This document shows positions 31,618-41,450 of a DNA stretch of 64,000 bases, piece after piece. A program made the translations under genes and the position numbers. The stretch's first letter is position 1. The number at the start of each line of letters is the position of its first letter. The notes under the pieces are model-generated. The model did no database searches, was not told the origin of the DNA, and worked only from the letters and a program-made list of their open reading frames with translations. The DNA comes from Egicoccus sp. AB-alg2 (GTDB lineage: Bacteria; Actinomycetota; Nitriliruptoria; Nitriliruptorales; Nitriliruptoraceae). The DNA lies in the NCBI RefSeq assembly GCF_041821065.1, contig NZ_JBGUAX010000002.1, positions 62,001 through 126,000 on the forward strand. Direction: 5' to 3'.

Positions 31618-31697
31618 GTGCGGCTCCCCGACACGATCCGTGGGCCCCTGTGCCCCTCTGCTTGGTTTCGGCGCGCCGGGGGGCCGGCTTGAGCCGC

Positions 31698-33043: not shown

Positions 33044-33669
33044 CGGAGTCCCTCCGGAAGTCCCTCGGCGTAGCGGCCGGTCTTGGCGAACGGCGCCAGC
33101 TCCCCATCGACGGAGAAGGTGGCGACCTCGGTGCCCTCCTCGTCGTCGAGCGACGACGAGTTGAAGTAGAGGTTGCGGAAGATGGCGACCTTGCCGAGCT
33201 CGTGGAGGATCGCCTCCACGCCCGGGGCGTGGGTCTCGACCGTCTTGCCGGTGATCGTGAACGAGCCGACCGACGTGGTCTCCGCCGCCGGGTCGGGCCG
33301 CGGCATGTTGATCGTGATCGTCTCCAGCTGCGCGTCGGCCGGCATGACCGAGGCGAGGTCGGAGAGGATCCAGGCCAGCGACACCTCGCCGGCCATCGCT
33401 TCGGTCAGCGAGGCGTTGGCCTTCATGCCCAGCTCTTCGAGCTCGCGGTACTCCGACATCTGGGCGACCTCGCCCTGGAGCTCGGCGGTGCGCAGCTCCG
33501 CGGCGGCGAGGCGGTCCTCGGCGTCGCGCAGCTGGCCGGTCCCCCACCAGTGGACGCCGCCGACGGCGACCAGGAGTCCGAGGCCGCTGGCCGCCAGGAT
33601 CCTGCGCTGCTTGGCGGCGCGCGCCTGTTCCCGGGTGACCTGCGGCAGCAGGTTGACGCGAACGCTCAC
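33040..33669 (-). CDS. pilN: Type IV pilus assembly protein PilN
   Basis: A 209-residue protein beginning VSVRVNLLPQ, the conserved PilN motif that inserts into the PilM groove. One membrane helix (~28-46), a coiled coil and a C-terminal domain (VGSFTITGKTVETHAPGVEAIL) follow. GTG 33669 overlaps the pilM stop (GTGA). Confidence 0.88.
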   Translation of the reverse strand: MSVRVNLLPQVTREQARAAKQRRILAASGLGLLVAVGGVHWWGTGQLRDAEDRLAAAELRTAELQGEVAQMSEYRELEELGMKANASLTEAMAGEVSLAWILSDLASVMPADAQLETITINMPRPDPAAETTSVGSFTITGKTVETHAPGVEAILHELGKVAIFRNLYFNSSSLDDEEGTEVATFSVDGELAPFAKTGRYAEGLPEGLR

Positions 33670-34703
33670 TCCAGACCCCCGAGCGCGAGACCGACGGCGG
33701 TGGCGAGGGTCGGCCCGACGTCGTGCAGGTCCTCCTCGCCGTAGACGGTGTCCTTGACGTTCGTACGTGCGAACGGGCTGGCCAGGTCGACCGGCAGGCG
33801 CAGGCTGGCGGCCAGCCGCTCCGGCAGGCCTGGCAGCGCGGCCGCGCCGCCGCTCAGCACCACGTAGGACAGCCGGCGTGAGCCGGGCTGGGCGGCGTAG
33901 TAGTCCAGCGAGCTGCGGATCTCGTCGATGAAGCGGTCGACCTGCGTGGTCAGCAGTTGGCTGGCCGGGTCGGTGGCGCCCAGCCGGCACTGGCGCTTCT
34001 GCTGTTCGGCCTGGTCGCGGTCGAGGTCGAGCCCGCGGGCCAGGGCCTCGGTCAGCGAGTCACCGCCGGTGGCGAGGATGCGCACGAACGTCGGCGTGCC
34101 GGCCTCGTGGATGACGAGGCTGGTGACGCCGGCGCCGATGTCGATGACCATCTCGCTGCCCTGCTCGAGCGGCGAGGTGTTGCCGACCGCCCGCAGCACG
34201 GCGAAGCAGTTGAGGTCGATGCCGATGGGCTTCAGACCGGCGCGGGTCGCGACCTCCACGTGGGAGGTCAGCATTTCCTTGTGGGCGGCGACCAGCAGCA
34301 CACGCTGCAGGTGGTCGCCCTCCTCGGTGAACCAGTCCTCGACCGGGTAGACGTCCAGTTCAGCGTCCTCCACGGCGATGGGCAGGTGCTCCTGCGCCTG
34401 GTAGCGGATCGACGTGCGCAGCTCCTCGAGCTCCATGTAGGGCAGGTCGATCTGCCGGACGACCACGCGCGGGTTGGCGACGCCCAGCCACACGCGGTCG
34501 GTCTTCACCTTGGCGGTGGACAGCAGCTCGCGCAGCGCCGCGGCGGCCGCGGCGGGGTCGAGGACCTCACCGCCGTTGACCACGTCGCCGGGGAGCTCGA
34601 TACCCCCGAAGTTGGTGACGACGACGCCGGTGCGGCCCTCACGGACCTCGGCGACGGTGATGGTGCGGGTTCCGATGTCGATGCCGACGGCACGTGATGC
34701 CAT
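33666..34703 (-). CDS. pilM: Type IV pilus assembly protein PilM
   Basis: A 345-residue actin-like ATPase. Phosphate-1 motif VGIDIGTRTITVAEV at the N-terminus, the PilM-specific LPYMELEELRTSIRYQAQEHLPI, phosphate-2 VIDIGAGVTSLVI, and SYVVLSGGAAALPGL near the adenosine pocket. It is the cytoplasmic ring that binds the PilN peptide and connects to the motors. It lies 3 bases after the small HTH gene. Confidence 0.93.
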   Translation of the reverse strand: MASRAVGIDIGTRTITVAEVREGRTGVVVTNFGGIELPGDVVNGGEVLDPAAAAAALRELLSTAKVKTDRVWLGVANPRVVVRQIDLPYMELEELRTSIRYQAQEHLPIAVEDAELDVYPVEDWFTEEGDHLQRVLLVAAHKEMLTSHVEVATRAGLKPIGIDLNCFAVLRAVGNTSPLEQGSEMVIDIGAGVTSLVIHEAGTPTFVRILATGGDSLTEALARGLDLDRDQAEQQKRQCRLGATDPASQLLTTQVDRFIDEIRSSLDYYAAQPGSRRLSYVVLSGGAAALPGLPERLAASLRLPVDLASPFARTNVKDTVYGEEDLHDVGPTLATAVGLALGGLE

Positions 34704-35980: not shown

Positions 35981-36451
35981 TCAGGTACCGCTGCCACCGG
36001 TGCCGGTGGTGGTCCACTGGCCAAGACCGCCAGTGGCCGAGTTGTAGACGACCTGCTCCCCACCGACAGCCGCGTGGACGGCCGTGATGGTGTAGCTAGC
36101 GGGCGCTGCCGCCGTACCCGTCCCGACCACCGGGGCGTACGTAAGTGTCACCCCGTCGCTGACGCGCAGGTCGACGTTGGTGGCCGGCGTGATGGTCGTC
36201 TCCCCGGCCGTGTTCTGAGTCGCAACGAAGCCGGCGGCCGGGTACGCGCCTGTACGAGTCATGAATGACTCGATCTCGATGGCGGCGTTGCGGGCGTCCG
36301 ACTCCGCCGATCCGCGCCAAGCGTTCTGACGCTGGTTGAGGAAGACGGGGATGGCGATCGCGGCGAGGATGCCGATGATGATCACCACGACGAGCAGTTC
36401 GATGAGGGTGAAGCCCTCTTCGTCCCGCTTCGTGCGGATGGACTCGAGCAT
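35981..36451 (-). CDS. pilA: Major type IV pilin
   Basis: A 156-residue prepilin: MLESIRTKRDEEGFTLIELL, cleavage between Gly and Phe, Glu5 present, and a long hydrophobic alpha-1 helix (VVVIIIGILAAIAIPVFLNQ). The variable C-terminal part is Thr/Ala/Gly-rich with no Cys, so no disulfide D-loop as in Neisseria. AAGGAG precedes ATG 36451. The gene is downstream of its own sigma-28-type promoter and a c-di-GMP-I riboswitch and is followed by a strong terminator. Confidence 0.95.
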   Translation of the reverse strand: MLESIRTKRDEEGFTLIELLVVVIIIGILAAIAIPVFLNQRQNAWRGSAESDARNAAIEIESFMTRTGAYPAAGFVATQNTAGETTITPATNVDLRVSDGVTLTYAPVVGTGTAAAPASYTITAVHAAVGGEQVVYNSATGGLGQWTTTGTGGSGT

Positions 36452-36544
36452 GAAACGCTCCTTGGCATGATGGCGATGATGAACCTGTGCCGACGTCCCG
36501 CCCGCTTGACAAGCACAGGCCCCATCGGGTGATGGAGCGTCTCT

Positions 36545-36642
36545 GCGCGAGGCAGCCCGGCTGACCGTCCCGATGATGCTGGGGGCTGAGGTCCCGTGGC
36601 GTTGCTTCCCCGCCTCTCGACGGAGTCGCCCTTGTCACGCGC
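36545..36642 (-). ncRNA. c-di-GMP-I (GEMM-I) riboswitch before pilA
   Basis: Minus strand, in order: P1 5' strand GCGCG; GACAAGGGCGACUCC; a C-GAGA-G GNRA tetraloop capping the first hairpin; GGGGAAGCAACGCCACGGG, which matches the class I core (G-GCAA-GCC); a second hairpin; then GACGGUCAGCCGGGCUGCC, corresponding to the conserved A-GCCGGG-U-CC end that docks the tetraloop; and P1 3' strand CGCGC. The following hairpins (CCATC-ACCC-GATGG; CCTGTGC...GCACAGG) could form the expression platform before the AAGGAG of pilA. Confidence 0.85.
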
Positions 36643-36661: not shown

Positions 36662-36688
36662 TTCTCGGCCACTTCGGCCATGGTCTTA
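36662..36688 (-). promoter_or_regulatory. Sigma-28 / WhiG-type promoter before the pilA riboswitch
   Basis: TAAGACCA, exactly 11 bases, then GCCGAGAA; the FliA/WhiG consensus is TAAA...-N15-GCCGATAA counted from TAAA. Transcription would start near 36655, 13 bases before P1 of the riboswitch, which is the expected geometry. The same layout occurs before the first gene of the operon (44615-44641). Confidence 0.7.
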
Positions 36689-36775
36689 AGCACAATCCAG
36701 GAAGATGCGCGATGACCCCCACTACCGCATACAGATTGATCTTTGAGCCAAAGACGCCAGCGAGGCCGGTATACG

Positions 36776-36830: not shown

Positions 36831-38072
36831 TCAGCTGCCGATGAGTTCGAAGATCTTGAACATCGGCATGTACAGCGCGATGACCATGCCACCGACGATG
36901 CCGCCGATCACGGCGATCATCAGCGGCTCCATGAGCGCGGTCAACGACTCCGTTGTCGACTCGATCTCCGTGTCGTAGAAGTCGGAGATCTTGCCGAGCA
37001 TGCCGTCGACGTTGCCCGTCTCCTCGCCAACGGCGATCATCTGCACGACCATCGGCGGGAAGATGTCGTGCTGCGACAGCGGTCGGTTCATCGATTCGCC
37101 CTGACGGACCGACTCCTGCACGTCCTTCACCGCATCACCGATAGGGCCATTGTTGACCGTTTCTGCGGTGATTTCCAGCGCCTGCAGGATCGGCACACCC
37201 GCGGCGAGCAACGTCGACAGATTCCGCGCGAAGCGCGTCAGCGCGATCTTGTGGAACAGTGGACCGAAGACCGGAACCCGCAACTTCATCACGTCGAGCG
37301 CATACCGCCCTCTCGGGTTCGCTCGGATTCGTTTATATCCGAACCATGCAGAGACGGGAACAACAACGTAGGTGACGACGCCCTTCCACGACGTGACGAA
37401 GTTCGACGCCTTTACAAGCATCTTCGTCAGCCACGGGAGTTCACCGCCGAGATCCTGGAACATGCCGTCGAACACGGGAACGATGAAGATGAGCATGACG
37501 GTCGACAGCGCGATCGCCATGAAGAAGACGATGGTCGGATAGGTCATCGCTGACTTGATCTTGCTACGGAGCTTGACATCGGCCTCGAGCATCACCGCGA
37601 CGCGGATGAGGACCTGGTCGAGCATGCCGGCGGTCTCGCCGGCCTTCACCATGGCGCGGTAGAGCTTCGGGAAGACCTTCTCGTGCTCCGCCATCGCGCT
37701 GGACAGCGAGGCGCCCGACTCGACGCGATTGCGGATGTCGTCGATGGTCTCCGCGAGCTTCTTGTTCTCCGTCTGGTCGTGGAGGATCGACAGCGATCGG
37801 ATCAGGGCCAGCCCGGAGTTGATCATCGTCGCGAACTGGCGCGAGAAGATCGCGAGGTCCTTCAGCCCGACACGGTCGGACAAGCCCGGGATCCGGATCT
37901 CCGTGTTGAGACCCTTCTCGTCGACTTGCGTGATCCGGATCGGGGCGTAGCCCATCGACGCGAGCTTCGAGGCGACGGCCGCCTGGCTGTCGGCCTCGAG
38001 TTGCCCCGTGATCATCTTGCCCGTGCGGTCACGGACCTGGTAGTCGAACTTGCTTACGGTCGCGCTGGGCAT
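36831..38072 (-). CDS. pilC: Type IV pilus platform protein PilC
   Basis: A 413-residue inner-membrane protein of the GspF/PilC family with two cytoplasmic T2SSF domains. Domain one: FSRQFATMINSGLALIRSLSIL to VKAGETAGMLDQVL; domain two: FARNLSTLLAAGVPILQALEI to MIAVGEETGNVDGML. Membrane helices at about 175-200, 225-245 and 385-407. It rotates pilin subunits into the fibre using the motors. AAGGAG precedes ATG 38072, 11 bases after pilT. Confidence 0.95.
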   Translation of the reverse strand: MPSATVSKFDYQVRDRTGKMITGQLEADSQAAVASKLASMGYAPIRITQVDEKGLNTEIRIPGLSDRVGLKDLAIFSRQFATMINSGLALIRSLSILHDQTENKKLAETIDDIRNRVESGASLSSAMAEHEKVFPKLYRAMVKAGETAGMLDQVLIRVAVMLEADVKLRSKIKSAMTYPTIVFFMAIALSTVMLIFIVPVFDGMFQDLGGELPWLTKMLVKASNFVTSWKGVVTYVVVPVSAWFGYKRIRANPRGRYALDVMKLRVPVFGPLFHKIALTRFARNLSTLLAAGVPILQALEITAETVNNGPIGDAVKDVQESVRQGESMNRPLSQHDIFPPMVVQMIAVGEETGNVDGMLGKISDFYDTEIESTTESLTALMEPLMIAVIGGIVGGMVIALYMPMFKIFELIGS

Positions 38073-38083
38073 CGTGGTCTCCT

Positions 38084-39796
38084 TCAGCCCTTGCCGGACA
38101 GGCGCTGGAATTCGGCCACGTTGTTGGCCTTCTCGAGCGCGGCGTCGTAGGTCACTTTGCCCGCCTTCACCAGCGTCGCCAGCGACTGGTCCATGGCGAC
38201 CATCCCGTGCTGGGCGCCGGCCTGGATCGCGCTGTAGAGCTGGTGGGTCTTGCCCTCACGGATGAGGTTCCGGACCGCCGAGGTCGCGGTCATGATCTCC
38301 ACCGCCACGGCGCGGCCCTTGCCGTCGGCGGTCTTCAGCAGCGTCTGACAGACGACGCCCTGCAGCGCGCCGGCCAGCATGACGCGGATCTGCTCCTGCT
38401 GGTGCGGCGGGAAGACGTCGATGATGCGGTCGACGGACTGCGGCGCGTCCTGGGTGTGCAGCGTCCCGAACACGAGGTGGCCGGTCTCCGCGGCGGTCAA
38501 CGCGATCTGGATCGTCTCGAGGTCGCGCATCTCGCCGACCAGGATCACGTCCGGGTCCTGGCGCAGCACGTGCTTCAGCGCCGCGTTGAACCCGTGGGTG
38601 TCCGTGCCCACCTCGCGCTGGTTCACGACCGAGCGTTTGTGGGTGTGCAGGAACTCGATGGGGTCCTCGACGGTCATGATGTGCGACGGCCGGTTGCGGT
38701 TGACCAGGTCGATCACCGACGCCAGCGTCGTCGACTTGCCGGAGCCGGTCGGCCCGGTGACCAGCACGAAACCACGCGGCAGGTAGGCGAAGTTGGCCAC
38801 CTGCTCCGGGATGCCCAGCTGCTCCAGCGGCCGGATCTCGAACGGGATGACACGCATCACCGCGCCGATGGAGTCGCGCTGCATGAAGACGTTGACGCGG
38901 AAGCGCGACTTGCCCGGGATCGCGTAGCTCATGTCCAGTTCGAGTTCGTTCTCGAACTGCTCGCGCTGCTTCTGCGTCATGATCGAGTACAGCATCTTCT
39001 GCAGCTCGTCCGGCACGCAGACCGGGAACTCCTCCATCGGCGTCAGGTCGCCGTGCACGCGGATGGTCGGCGGGATCCCGCACGTCAGGTGCAGGTCGGA
39101 CCCGCCGCGCTCGACCAGGGTCAGCAGCAGCTGATCGAGGTCGATCGCCGTGTCCTCCTCGGACATCAGCAGCGGCGTCACCGGTGCCGAGGCGCCGTCA
39201 CCGCCCACGGCTGCCCCTCCGTCGACCGCCGCCATCGCCGGTGTCCCTCCGGGCGGCGGCGTCGACGGAACCGCGGGCGGTGACGACAGCGCGCCGGCCG
39301 TGGAGCCCTCGCCGCCCCTGGCGCCCACGCCGGCGGGGACTGCCTGCGCCTCGATGGCCGCCAGCAGGGTCCGGCGTGATGCCAAGGCGAGTGCGACGGG
39401 AAGACCCATCGCCGACTCCAGCCGCGCACGCAAGGTCGTGTCGTAGGGGTCGGCCACGGCGACCATGATCTGGTCGTCCTCGCCGAACCGGATCGGCAGC
39501 GCCAGCAGCTCGCGAGCGATCTCGCCGGGCAGCAGCGCCGCCGCGTGCGGGTCGACGTGTGCGGCGTCGACCTCGGCGTAGGGCATGCCGAGCGTGGCCG
39601 CCAGGGCGCGCACGAGGTCGCCCTCGCCGGCCAGGCGCTGGTCGAGCAGCACCTTGGGCAGGCTGCCCTCGCCGGCCGCGGACCGCTCCTCCGCCCAGCG
39701 CAACTGCTCCGGGCTCAGCACGCCGTGCCGGACCAGCACCTCGCCGAGTGCGCTCACGACTTCTTCCTCCTGCGTCGCCGTCTCAGACGACGACAC
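38084..39796 (-). CDS. pilT: PilT-type retraction ATPase with N-terminal MshEN domain
   Basis: A 570-residue protein. Residues ~15-160 form an MshEN-like domain (ALGEVLVRHGVLSPEQLRWA, SLPKVLLDQRLAGEGDLVRALA), the c-di-GMP-binding module normally found on PilB/MshE. A Pro/Ala/Gly linker (~175-215) follows, then a complete PilT ATPase: GGSDLHLTCGIPPTIRVHG, Walker A GPTGSGKSTT, Asp/His boxes, Walker B DVILVGEMRDLETI and the retraction motif region AIQAGAQHGMVAMDQSL (AIRxG-like). Typical PilT is ~350 residues without MshEN. GTG 39796 overlaps pilB by 14 bases. Confidence 0.92.
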   Translation of the reverse strand: MSSSETATQEEEVVSALGEVLVRHGVLSPEQLRWAEERSAAGEGSLPKVLLDQRLAGEGDLVRALAATLGMPYAEVDAAHVDPHAAALLPGEIARELLALPIRFGEDDQIMVAVADPYDTTLRARLESAMGLPVALALASRRTLLAAIEAQAVPAGVGARGGEGSTAGALSSPPAVPSTPPPGGTPAMAAVDGGAAVGGDGASAPVTPLLMSEEDTAIDLDQLLLTLVERGGSDLHLTCGIPPTIRVHGDLTPMEEFPVCVPDELQKMLYSIMTQKQREQFENELELDMSYAIPGKSRFRVNVFMQRDSIGAVMRVIPFEIRPLEQLGIPEQVANFAYLPRGFVLVTGPTGSGKSTTLASVIDLVNRNRPSHIMTVEDPIEFLHTHKRSVVNQREVGTDTHGFNAALKHVLRQDPDVILVGEMRDLETIQIALTAAETGHLVFGTLHTQDAPQSVDRIIDVFPPHQQEQIRVMLAGALQGVVCQTLLKTADGKGRAVAVEIMTATSAVRNLIREGKTHQLYSAIQAGAQHGMVAMDQSLATLVKAGKVTYDAALEKANNVAEFQRLSGKG

Positions 39797-41450
39797 GTCC
39801 GATCTCCTCGAGCGTCGTCCGCCCGAGCAACACCTTCGACAGGCCGTCCTGCCGCAACGTCTGCATGCCCTGCTCGATCGCGACCTTCGCGATCTGTTCC
39901 GAGGAGGCCCGTGCGACCGCCAGTCGCTCGATCTCCTCGGTGACCGTCAGCACCTCGTGCACCGCGAGCCGGCCCCGGTAGCCGGTGTTGCTGCAGGCCG
40001 AGCAGCCGACCGCGCGAGGCAGCGGCGGCCGTTCGCGGACGATGTCGTCCGGGAACCCGGCCGCCGCAAGGATTTCCGGTTCTGGGGCCACGTGTTCGAC
40101 GCAGCGCGCACAGACCTTGCGGGCCAGTCGCTGCGCCAGCACGCAGTCGACGGCCGAGCCGACCAGGAACGGCTCGATGCCCATCTCCGTCAGCCGGGTG
40201 ACCGCCGACGGGGCGTCGTTGGTGTGCAGCGTCGACAGCACGAGGTGGCCGGTGAGGGCGGCCTCGATGCCGATGTGGGCCGTCTCGCGGTCGCGCATCT
40301 CGCCCACGAGGACGATGTCGGGGTCCTGCCGCAGGATCGAGCGCAGCGCCGACGCGAACGTCAGGCCGATCTTCGGGTTGACCTGGACCTGGCTGATGCC
40401 GGGCAGGCGGTACTCGACGGGGTCCTCGGTGGTGATGATGTTCACCCCCGGCTCGTTGAGCACGTTCAGCGTCGCGTACAGCGTCGTGGACTTGCCCGAA
40501 CCGGTCGGACCGGTGACCAGGATCGTGCCGTAGGGCTTGCGGTAGGCCTCTTCGAACCGCTTGTGGTTGTGCTCGAGGAAGCCGAGGTCCTCCAGCTCGA
40601 GCAGCACGGCGGTCTTGTCGAGGATGCGCATCACGACCTTCTCGCCGTACACGGTCGGCAGCGTCGAGAAGCGCAGGTCGATGGCCTTGTTGTTCGAGGT
40701 GACGCTGATGCGCCCGTCCTGCGGGACGCGGCGTTCGGCGATGTCGACGTCGGCCATGATCTTGAGCCGGCTGATGACCCCGGACTGGATCGTCTTCGGC
40801 GAGCGCATCACCTCGTGCAGCACGCCGTCGATGCGGTAGCGCACCCGCAGGTCGCGCTCCCCCGGCTCGATGTGGATGTCCGACGCGCCGTCCGCGACCG
40901 CCTGCGAGATGAGCAGGTTCACGAACTTGACGATCGGCGCTTCCTCGACGACGGCGCGGATGGAGCTGAGGTCGCCGTCCTCGTCGCCACCATCGGCGAT
41001 GTCGCCCGCCATCGCCTCCATGTCGTCGGCGAGGTGGGCGAACTTCTCGATCGCCGCCTGGATGTCCTCCTTGGTGGCGACGACGGGCTGGACGTCCAGC
41101 TTGGTGATCGTGCGCAGGTCGTCGATCGCAACGATGTTGGCCGGATCGCTCATCGCGACCAGCAGCTTGCCGTCCTGCATCGCGTACGGGAGCACGCTGT
41201 GCCGGGTCAGCGTCGTTGCCGGCACGAGTGTGGCCAGCCGCCCGTCGACGTCGGCCTCGGCGAGGTCGACGAACGACAGACCGATCTGGCCGGCCAGGGC
41301 CGCGACCAGCTGCTTCTCCGTCAGCAGACCCCGCTCGACCAGCACCCGGCCCAGCGAGCGGCCGGTGCCACGCTGCTCCGTCTCGGCCTCGCGCAGCTGG
41401 TCGGCGGAGACCAGGCCCTGGGCGACGAACACCTGCCCGAGCGATCTCAT
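39783..41450 (-). CDS. pilB: Type IV pilus extension ATPase PilB
   Basis: A 555-residue GspE/PilB ATPase. N-terminal MshEN domain (SLGQVFVAQGLVSADQLREA, SLGRVLVERGLLTEKQLVAALA) for c-di-GMP; then SDIHIEPGERDLRVRYRIDG, Walker A GPTGSGKSTTLYATL, Asp box, Walker B DIVLVGEMRDRETA, and a C-terminal zinc site with two CxxC pairs (CARCVEH, CSACSNTGYRG). ATG 41450 overlaps the GTPase stop (ATGA). Confidence 0.96.
   Translation of the reverse strand: MRSLGQVFVAQGLVSADQLREAETEQRGTGRSLGRVLVERGLLTEKQLVAALAGQIGLSFVDLAEADVDGRLATLVPATTLTRHSVLPYAMQDGKLLVAMSDPANIVAIDDLRTITKLDVQPVVATKEDIQAAIEKFAHLADDMEAMAGDIADGGDEDGDLSSIRAVVEEAPIVKFVNLLISQAVADGASDIHIEPGERDLRVRYRIDGVLHEVMRSPKTIQSGVISRLKIMADVDIAERRVPQDGRISVTSNNKAIDLRFSTLPTVYGEKVVMRILDKTAVLLELEDLGFLEHNHKRFEEAYRKPYGTILVTGPTGSGKSTTLYATLNVLNEPGVNIITTEDPVEYRLPGISQVQVNPKIGLTFASALRSILRQDPDIVLVGEMRDRETAHIGIEAALTGHLVLSTLHTNDAPSAVTRLTEMGIEPFLVGSAVDCVLAQRLARKVCARCVEHVAPEPEILAAAGFPDDIVRERPPLPRAVGCSACSNTGYRGRLAVHEVLTVTEEIERLAVARASSEQIAKVAIEQGMQTLRQDGLSKVLLGRTTLEEIGRVVV

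Follow-up and report, generated by a model that had tools for sequence, protein, structure and literature searches.

The pil locus of Egicoccus sp. AB-alg2 carries a candidate c-di-GMP riboswitch in the leader of its pilin gene, pilA, which raises the question of whether this RNA senses c-di-GMP, and whether it would be the only point at which the second messenger acts on the pilin. We addressed this question in a stretch of 64,000 nucleotides that includes the locus (64 kb, hereafter the window), in the whole 4.8-Mb genome, and in further genomes of the class Nitriliruptoria and the phylum Actinomycetota. In the window, the genes for a PilB-type and a PilT-type ATPase are followed on the same strand by pilC, the riboswitch and pilA, and at a greater distance by pilM:

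39783..41450, minus strand: PilB-type ATPase with MshEN domain (TIGR02538, 659.7 bits, just below the cut-off of 675.65; PF05157, 79.3 bits)
38084..39796, minus strand: PilT-type ATPase with MshEN domain (TIGR01420, 490.9 bits against a cut-off of 319.1; PF05157, 46.1 bits against 23.1)
36831..38072, minus strand: pilC (PF00482, 231 bits)
35981..36451, minus strand: pilA, type IV pilin of 156 aa with GFTLIEL (PF07963, 35.8 bits)
33666..34703, minus strand: pilM (PF11104, 175 bits)

The initial annotation counted two further probable c-di-GMP inputs, and MshEN domains were found on both ATPases; the PilB-type ATPase also matches the c-di-GMP motif NF053729 (54.3 against a cut-off of 38).

The aptamer and its ligand pocket

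Scanning the window with cmscan and Rfam 15 yielded a match to RF01051 (c-di-GMP-I) at 36640-36548 on the minus strand, which spans the full model (1-87) and scores 40.3 bits, above the gathering score of 35 (E = 2e-4 when 4227 families are searched on both strands of the 64 kb). It was the only match above its cut-off in the window and the only RF01051 copy in the genome, and none was found in 14 control genomes; RF03167 (c-di-GMP-I-GGC) matched the same stretch with 44.9 bits, under its own cut-off of 59. This agrees with the initial annotation, which had placed a c-di-GMP-I riboswitch at 36545-36642, between pilC and pilA and 94 bases ahead of the pilin start at 36451. The landmarks it named were all found in the sequence as well, namely a GNRA tetraloop (GAGA, on P2), the GCAA-GCC junction block, the AGCCGGG receptor stretch (AGCCGGGCUGCC) and a closing P1 helix, GCGCG/CGCGC:

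36638..36642, minus strand: P1 5' strand GCGCG, pairing with 36549-36545 (the same in G001, G002, G003 and G010)
36548..36640, minus strand: c-di-GMP-I (GEMM-I) riboswitch aptamer (RF01051)
36545..36549, minus strand: P1 3' strand CGCGC (the same in G001, G002, G003 and G010)

Judged by homology, the pilA leader carries a genuine, if divergent, representative of this known riboswitch family. In Vc2 numbering, the bases G20, A47, A48 and C92, whose roles in contacting the ligand are described in PMC3764141, are intact, and four core positions are changed (A23G, A25C, C44A and A49C). The same paper lists A23, A25, C44 and A49 as highly conserved, with C44 pairing with G83 and A49 taking part in an A-minor contact, and it is because these four positions are changed that the RF01051 score is modest. 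All four changes are common to the four species of the genus that were compared. The flanks of the aptamer are far less alike between these species. Two genomes from a different family of the class also have A23G, C44A and A49C. Of the 55 copies parsed, most have A/C at positions 23 and 44; seven, one of them a duplicate record, have G/A, and G010 alone has G/U. The long-range pair 44/83 reads C44/G83 in most relatives, A44/G83 in the window and U44/A83 in G010. This last exchange (locus L028), read by hand, is a possible compensatory change and suggests that the fold is maintained.

The pocket appears to be of the c-di-GMP type, and c-di-GMP would be its likeliest ligand, since the bases that contact the ligand are all kept and the Ser diagnostic of Hypr GGDEF enzymes, which make cGAMP (PMC6456294), was absent from 13 of the 13 GGDEF-domain loci with a readable signature. 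We also considered cGAMP, which is disfavoured by these signatures and by the G at position 20, where a cGAMP (GEMM-Ib) riboswitch is expected to have A. A different reading of the core changes is that they reflect decay or a shift in ligand, such that the RNA has lost c-di-GMP binding or binds another nucleotide; this would fit the scores within the genus (32.6 to 40.3 bits, compared to up to 88 in the phylum) and the fact that the changed positions are among the highly conserved ones. We hold such degeneration to be very unlikely, given that all four species compared have the changes despite diverged flanks and PilC identities of 73-85% to the window protein, that positions 23 and 44 change together, with U44-A83 standing for C44-G83 in G010, that all four ligand contacts are kept, and that Ser-type GGDEF was not seen among the signatures read.

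A candidate WhiG-type promoter upstream of the aptamer

RF01051 is present in 36 of the 66 Nitriliruptoria genomes analysed, and in 17 genomes of the class it lies ahead of a GFTLIE type IV pilin; on contigs of sufficient length the pil gene order is conserved as well. A survey of 80 PilC loci from named genomes gave 17 with RF01051 or RF03167, each ahead of a pilin. Two of these duplicate genomes of the class count (G001 and G060), and the other 15 come from Actinomycetota outside the class. An alignment of the congeners' leaders first brought to notice a TYAAG...GCCGA motif upstream of the aptamer, where the window has:

36662..36689, minus strand: predicted flagellar/WhiG-type (sigma28) promoter (-35 TTAAGA at 36689-36684, N14, -10 GCCGAGAA at 36669-36662)

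The predicted promoter ends 21 nt upstream of the aptamer and would start the pilA message at ~36655. It matches the published flagellar consensus TAAA-N16-GCCGATAA at 10 of 12 positions (two mismatches, shuffle p = 0.005), and on both strands of the 64-kb window only one other site, at 31692, scores at least as high as 10/12; this second site (~31692, minus strand) reads TCAAGC...GCCGAAAC. The rule used for WhiG promoters in Rubrobacter allows up to two mismatches within 200 bp of the start codon (PMC8325347); the pilA site has two mismatches to TAAA-N14-17-GCCGATAA and lies 210 nt from the start codon, slightly past that distance. A spacing of 16 gives the best site in 13 of the 17 pilA leaders, and the best scores sum to 151 where 122.6 is expected; single leaders such as those of G046, G040 and G010 score no better than shuffles, so that the weight rests on the repeated position and spacing. 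The pilA message most probably has a promoter of its own, of WhiG/FliA type, immediately upstream of the aptamer.

The same arrangement was then sought across the phylum in 90 RF01051 loci, one per genome, drawn from 396 genomes as the best-scoring of the listed matches, a sample in which strong aptamers are over-represented. Scoring covered 12 positions, with C allowed at one -35 base, within 90 nt upstream of the aptamer. A match of at least 10/12 was found upstream of 57 of the 90 aptamers, in 17 of 24 families, compared to 1.6% in dinucleotide shuffles and 1.1% with the motif reversed; in the 90 nt downstream of the same aptamers the figure was 0%, and before TPP riboswitches of the phylum it was 0/30, with none even at 9. 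The end of the -10 box lies a median of 27 nt upstream of the aptamer. A pilin follows 15 of the 90 sampled aptamers, and coupling to this promoter as a property of pilins only was ruled out, as the non-pilin riboswitches of the class score alike (9.12 vs 9.6, p = 0.42). Other RF01051 copies of the class (L005, L007, L014, L021, L036 and others) precede predicted secreted proteins that look CAP-like by eye, and several of these copies have near-perfect TCAAGC-N14-GCCGATAC promoters.

WhiG, RsiG and a proposed double gate

RsiG is the c-di-GMP-dependent anti-sigma factor of WhiG, and this genome encodes WhiG and a likely RsiG with twin motifs. The WhiG equivalog scores 374 bits with NCBIfam NF004935 (cut-off 343) and matches 6pfj_A with E 7e-91, and RsiG, found by its motif, matches 6pfj_T with E 5.9e-17 (PDB 6pfj). 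The first RsiG motif, EEAVSYARRLTQGRLD, fits E(X)3S(X)2R(X)3[Q/H](X)3D exactly, and the second has Phe for Gln; Phe stands at this place in all 10 aligned sequences (L110-L119), and Gln in Streptomyces. Relatives of RsiG occur in 50 of the 66 class genomes, including 16 of the 17 with a pilA riboswitch, and in the phylum sample RsiG was found in 140 of 154 genomes with the riboswitch compared to 104 of 242 without it, an association inflated by relatedness.

As to what the riboswitch would control, the 3' end of the aptamer is followed by a strand that can pair with the Shine-Dalgarno (SD) sequence of pilA:

36534..36543, minus strand: anti-SD strand GAGACGCUCC (10 bp with the pilA SD, shuffle p = 0.007)
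36484..36519, minus strand: predicted leader hairpin CCUGUGC...GCACAGG between anti-SD and SD (arms identical in G000-G003, from the alignment)
36452..36461, minus strand: SD strand GGAGCGUUUC of pilA, pairing with the anti-SD strand

The P1-adjacent strand pairs with the SD over 10, 8 and 9 bp in the window and two congeners, G001 and G002 (shuffle p 0.007, 0.026 and 0.011), and an SD/anti-SD helix was not found in other genomes of the class, its significance being limited to G000-G002; SD sequestration as a class-wide output was ruled out on this ground. When P1 and P2 were enforced during folding, the SD was not freed in G000 and G001 and was partly freed in G002. The leader as a whole is no more stable than shuffles (z = -0.52), and neither an intrinsic terminator nor a sigma70-type promoter was found near it. 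Translation is a plausible output of the riboswitch, as judged from the 10-bp helix confined to three close species. The pilA leaders of G040, G044, G060 and G043 (L009, L012, L035 and L030) share another motif, CUGC(A/G)ACUUGC, between the aptamer and the start codon.

On balance we think it probable that the pilA leader forms a two-stage c-di-GMP gate, with RsiG-WhiG acting at transcription and the riboswitch in the leader, besides MshEN on PilB and PilT. RNA polymerase with WhiG, whose gene and motif are both present, would start the pilA message at 36689-36662. At high c-di-GMP, ligand-bound RsiG would sequester WhiG in the manner of Streptomyces and Rubrobacter, and so shut off transcription. 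The 5' end of the message would then fold into the c-di-GMP-I aptamer, recognised here by homology, whose P1 abuts the helix predicted to bury the pilA ribosome-binding site, and c-di-GMP would tune PilA translation. At a third stage, c-di-GMP may act on the MshEN domain observed on PilB and perhaps on that of PilT. If the riboswitch is of the OFF type, the gates would act together and pilin would be made only at low c-di-GMP; if it is of the ON type, the gates would be opposed and pilin would peak at intermediate c-di-GMP. The initial annotation had the pilin dose, relative to the machine, follow c-di-GMP. A c-di-GMP-I aptamer in the pilA leader, with a pocket of c-di-GMP type, and the MshEN domains of the two ATPases are supported; control of the pilin dose through the RNA alone would be an incomplete account, given the candidate WhiG/FliA-type promoter and the presence of WhiG and a likely RsiG.

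Several observations weigh against the double gate: the pilA promoter is two mismatches off the consensus and several leaders of the class are individually non-significant, Phe replaces Gln in the second RsiG motif, the SD helix occurs in three close species only and stays closed in G000 and G001 with P1 and P2 enforced, and the co-occurrence statistics are inflated by relatedness. That the upstream motif is no promoter at all and arises from base composition, as leaders at the shuffle level such as G046, G040 and G010 might indicate, is extremely improbable in view of the phylum sample (57 of 90 loci, compared to 1-2% for shuffles and the reversed motif, 0% downstream of the aptamers and none of 30 TPP riboswitches) and of the recurring spacing and distance. 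A more serious candidate is an ordinary c-di-GMP-I riboswitch transcribed without RsiG, by a FliA-type sigma or by read-through from pilC, in which case c-di-GMP would be sensed by the leader and MshEN only and the pili would be made with the motility programme. FliA could use the pilA promoter, given that flagellins are encoded at C5:462-472 kb, with another FliA/WhiG-family sigma nearby (C5:474 kb, 179.5 bits), and that the two sigma factors have the same promoter specificity (PMC8325347 on WhiG and FliA); moreover, 14 riboswitch genomes have no RsiG match, and two of these have a good promoter. Set against this are the strong co-occurrence of RsiG with the riboswitch and the case of Rubrobacter, where mapped start sites led to the proposal that RsiG-WhiG controls type IV pili (PMC8325347). 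Read-through from pilC would leave the conserved promoter at a fixed distance unexplained. We judge this alternative unlikely, and retain the RsiG-WhiG double gate as the preferred reading.

Relation to known systems

Extending the double gate to the phylum, we tentatively propose, as a possibility that is somewhat short of even, that c-di-GMP-I riboswitches of Actinomycetota as a rule sit in messages of RsiG-controlled WhiG, with one second messenger gating the same surface genes twice in series; serial gates of opposite sign would form a band-pass filter for c-di-GMP. Each part is known, and what appears to be new is the repeated, phylum-wide coupling of the riboswitch to WhiG/FliA-type promoters in RsiG-carrying genomes; in the open-licence literature we found no report of c-di-GMP riboswitches recurrently placed directly behind promoters of a sigma factor that is itself gated by c-di-GMP. 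If true, it would provide a ready-made WhiG regulon in non-sporulating Actinomycetota, bear on the role of the RsiG-WhiG switch before sporulation, and raise a question testable in cultured strains, namely why one message should sense the same molecule twice.

The nearest precedents are RsiG-WhiG with pili in Rubrobacter and a merRNA in the FliA-dominated programme of Bdellovibrio. Like Rubrobacter (PMC8325347), this genome has WhiG-type promoters in the pil cluster along with WhiG and a likely RsiG; it differs in the Phe of the second motif of its twin-motif RsiG and in the c-di-GMP riboswitch directly behind the promoter, riboswitches going unmentioned in that paper. The Bdellovibrio merRNA, likewise an RNA of the c-di-GMP riboswitch type, is expressed within a programme dominated by sigma28 (FliA), but, unlike here, no coding gene follows it and its table row holds no FliA promoter (PMC3627812). 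With Vc2 of Vibrio cholerae (RF01051) the pilA aptamer shares the fold, the tetraloop, the ligand-contacting bases and a place in the 5' leader of a surface gene, whereas it differs in the A23G, A25C, C44A and A49C core, in the intrinsic terminator, which was not seen here, and in the possible SD helix of three species. The GEMM-Ib (cGAMP) riboswitches of Geobacter have the same fold and are GEMM-I class switches ahead of type IV pilus genes as well, but G20, whose change to A leads to cGAMP binding in GEMM-I, is kept here, and Ser-type GGDEF was not among the signatures read. Finally, as in the MshE/PilB ATPases (PMC5013675), the PilB-type ATPase has an MshEN domain above the cut-off; in contrast to them, the PilT-type retraction ATPase, whose NF053729 c-di-GMP motif scores 27.7, under the cut-off of 38, also carries an N-terminal MshEN.
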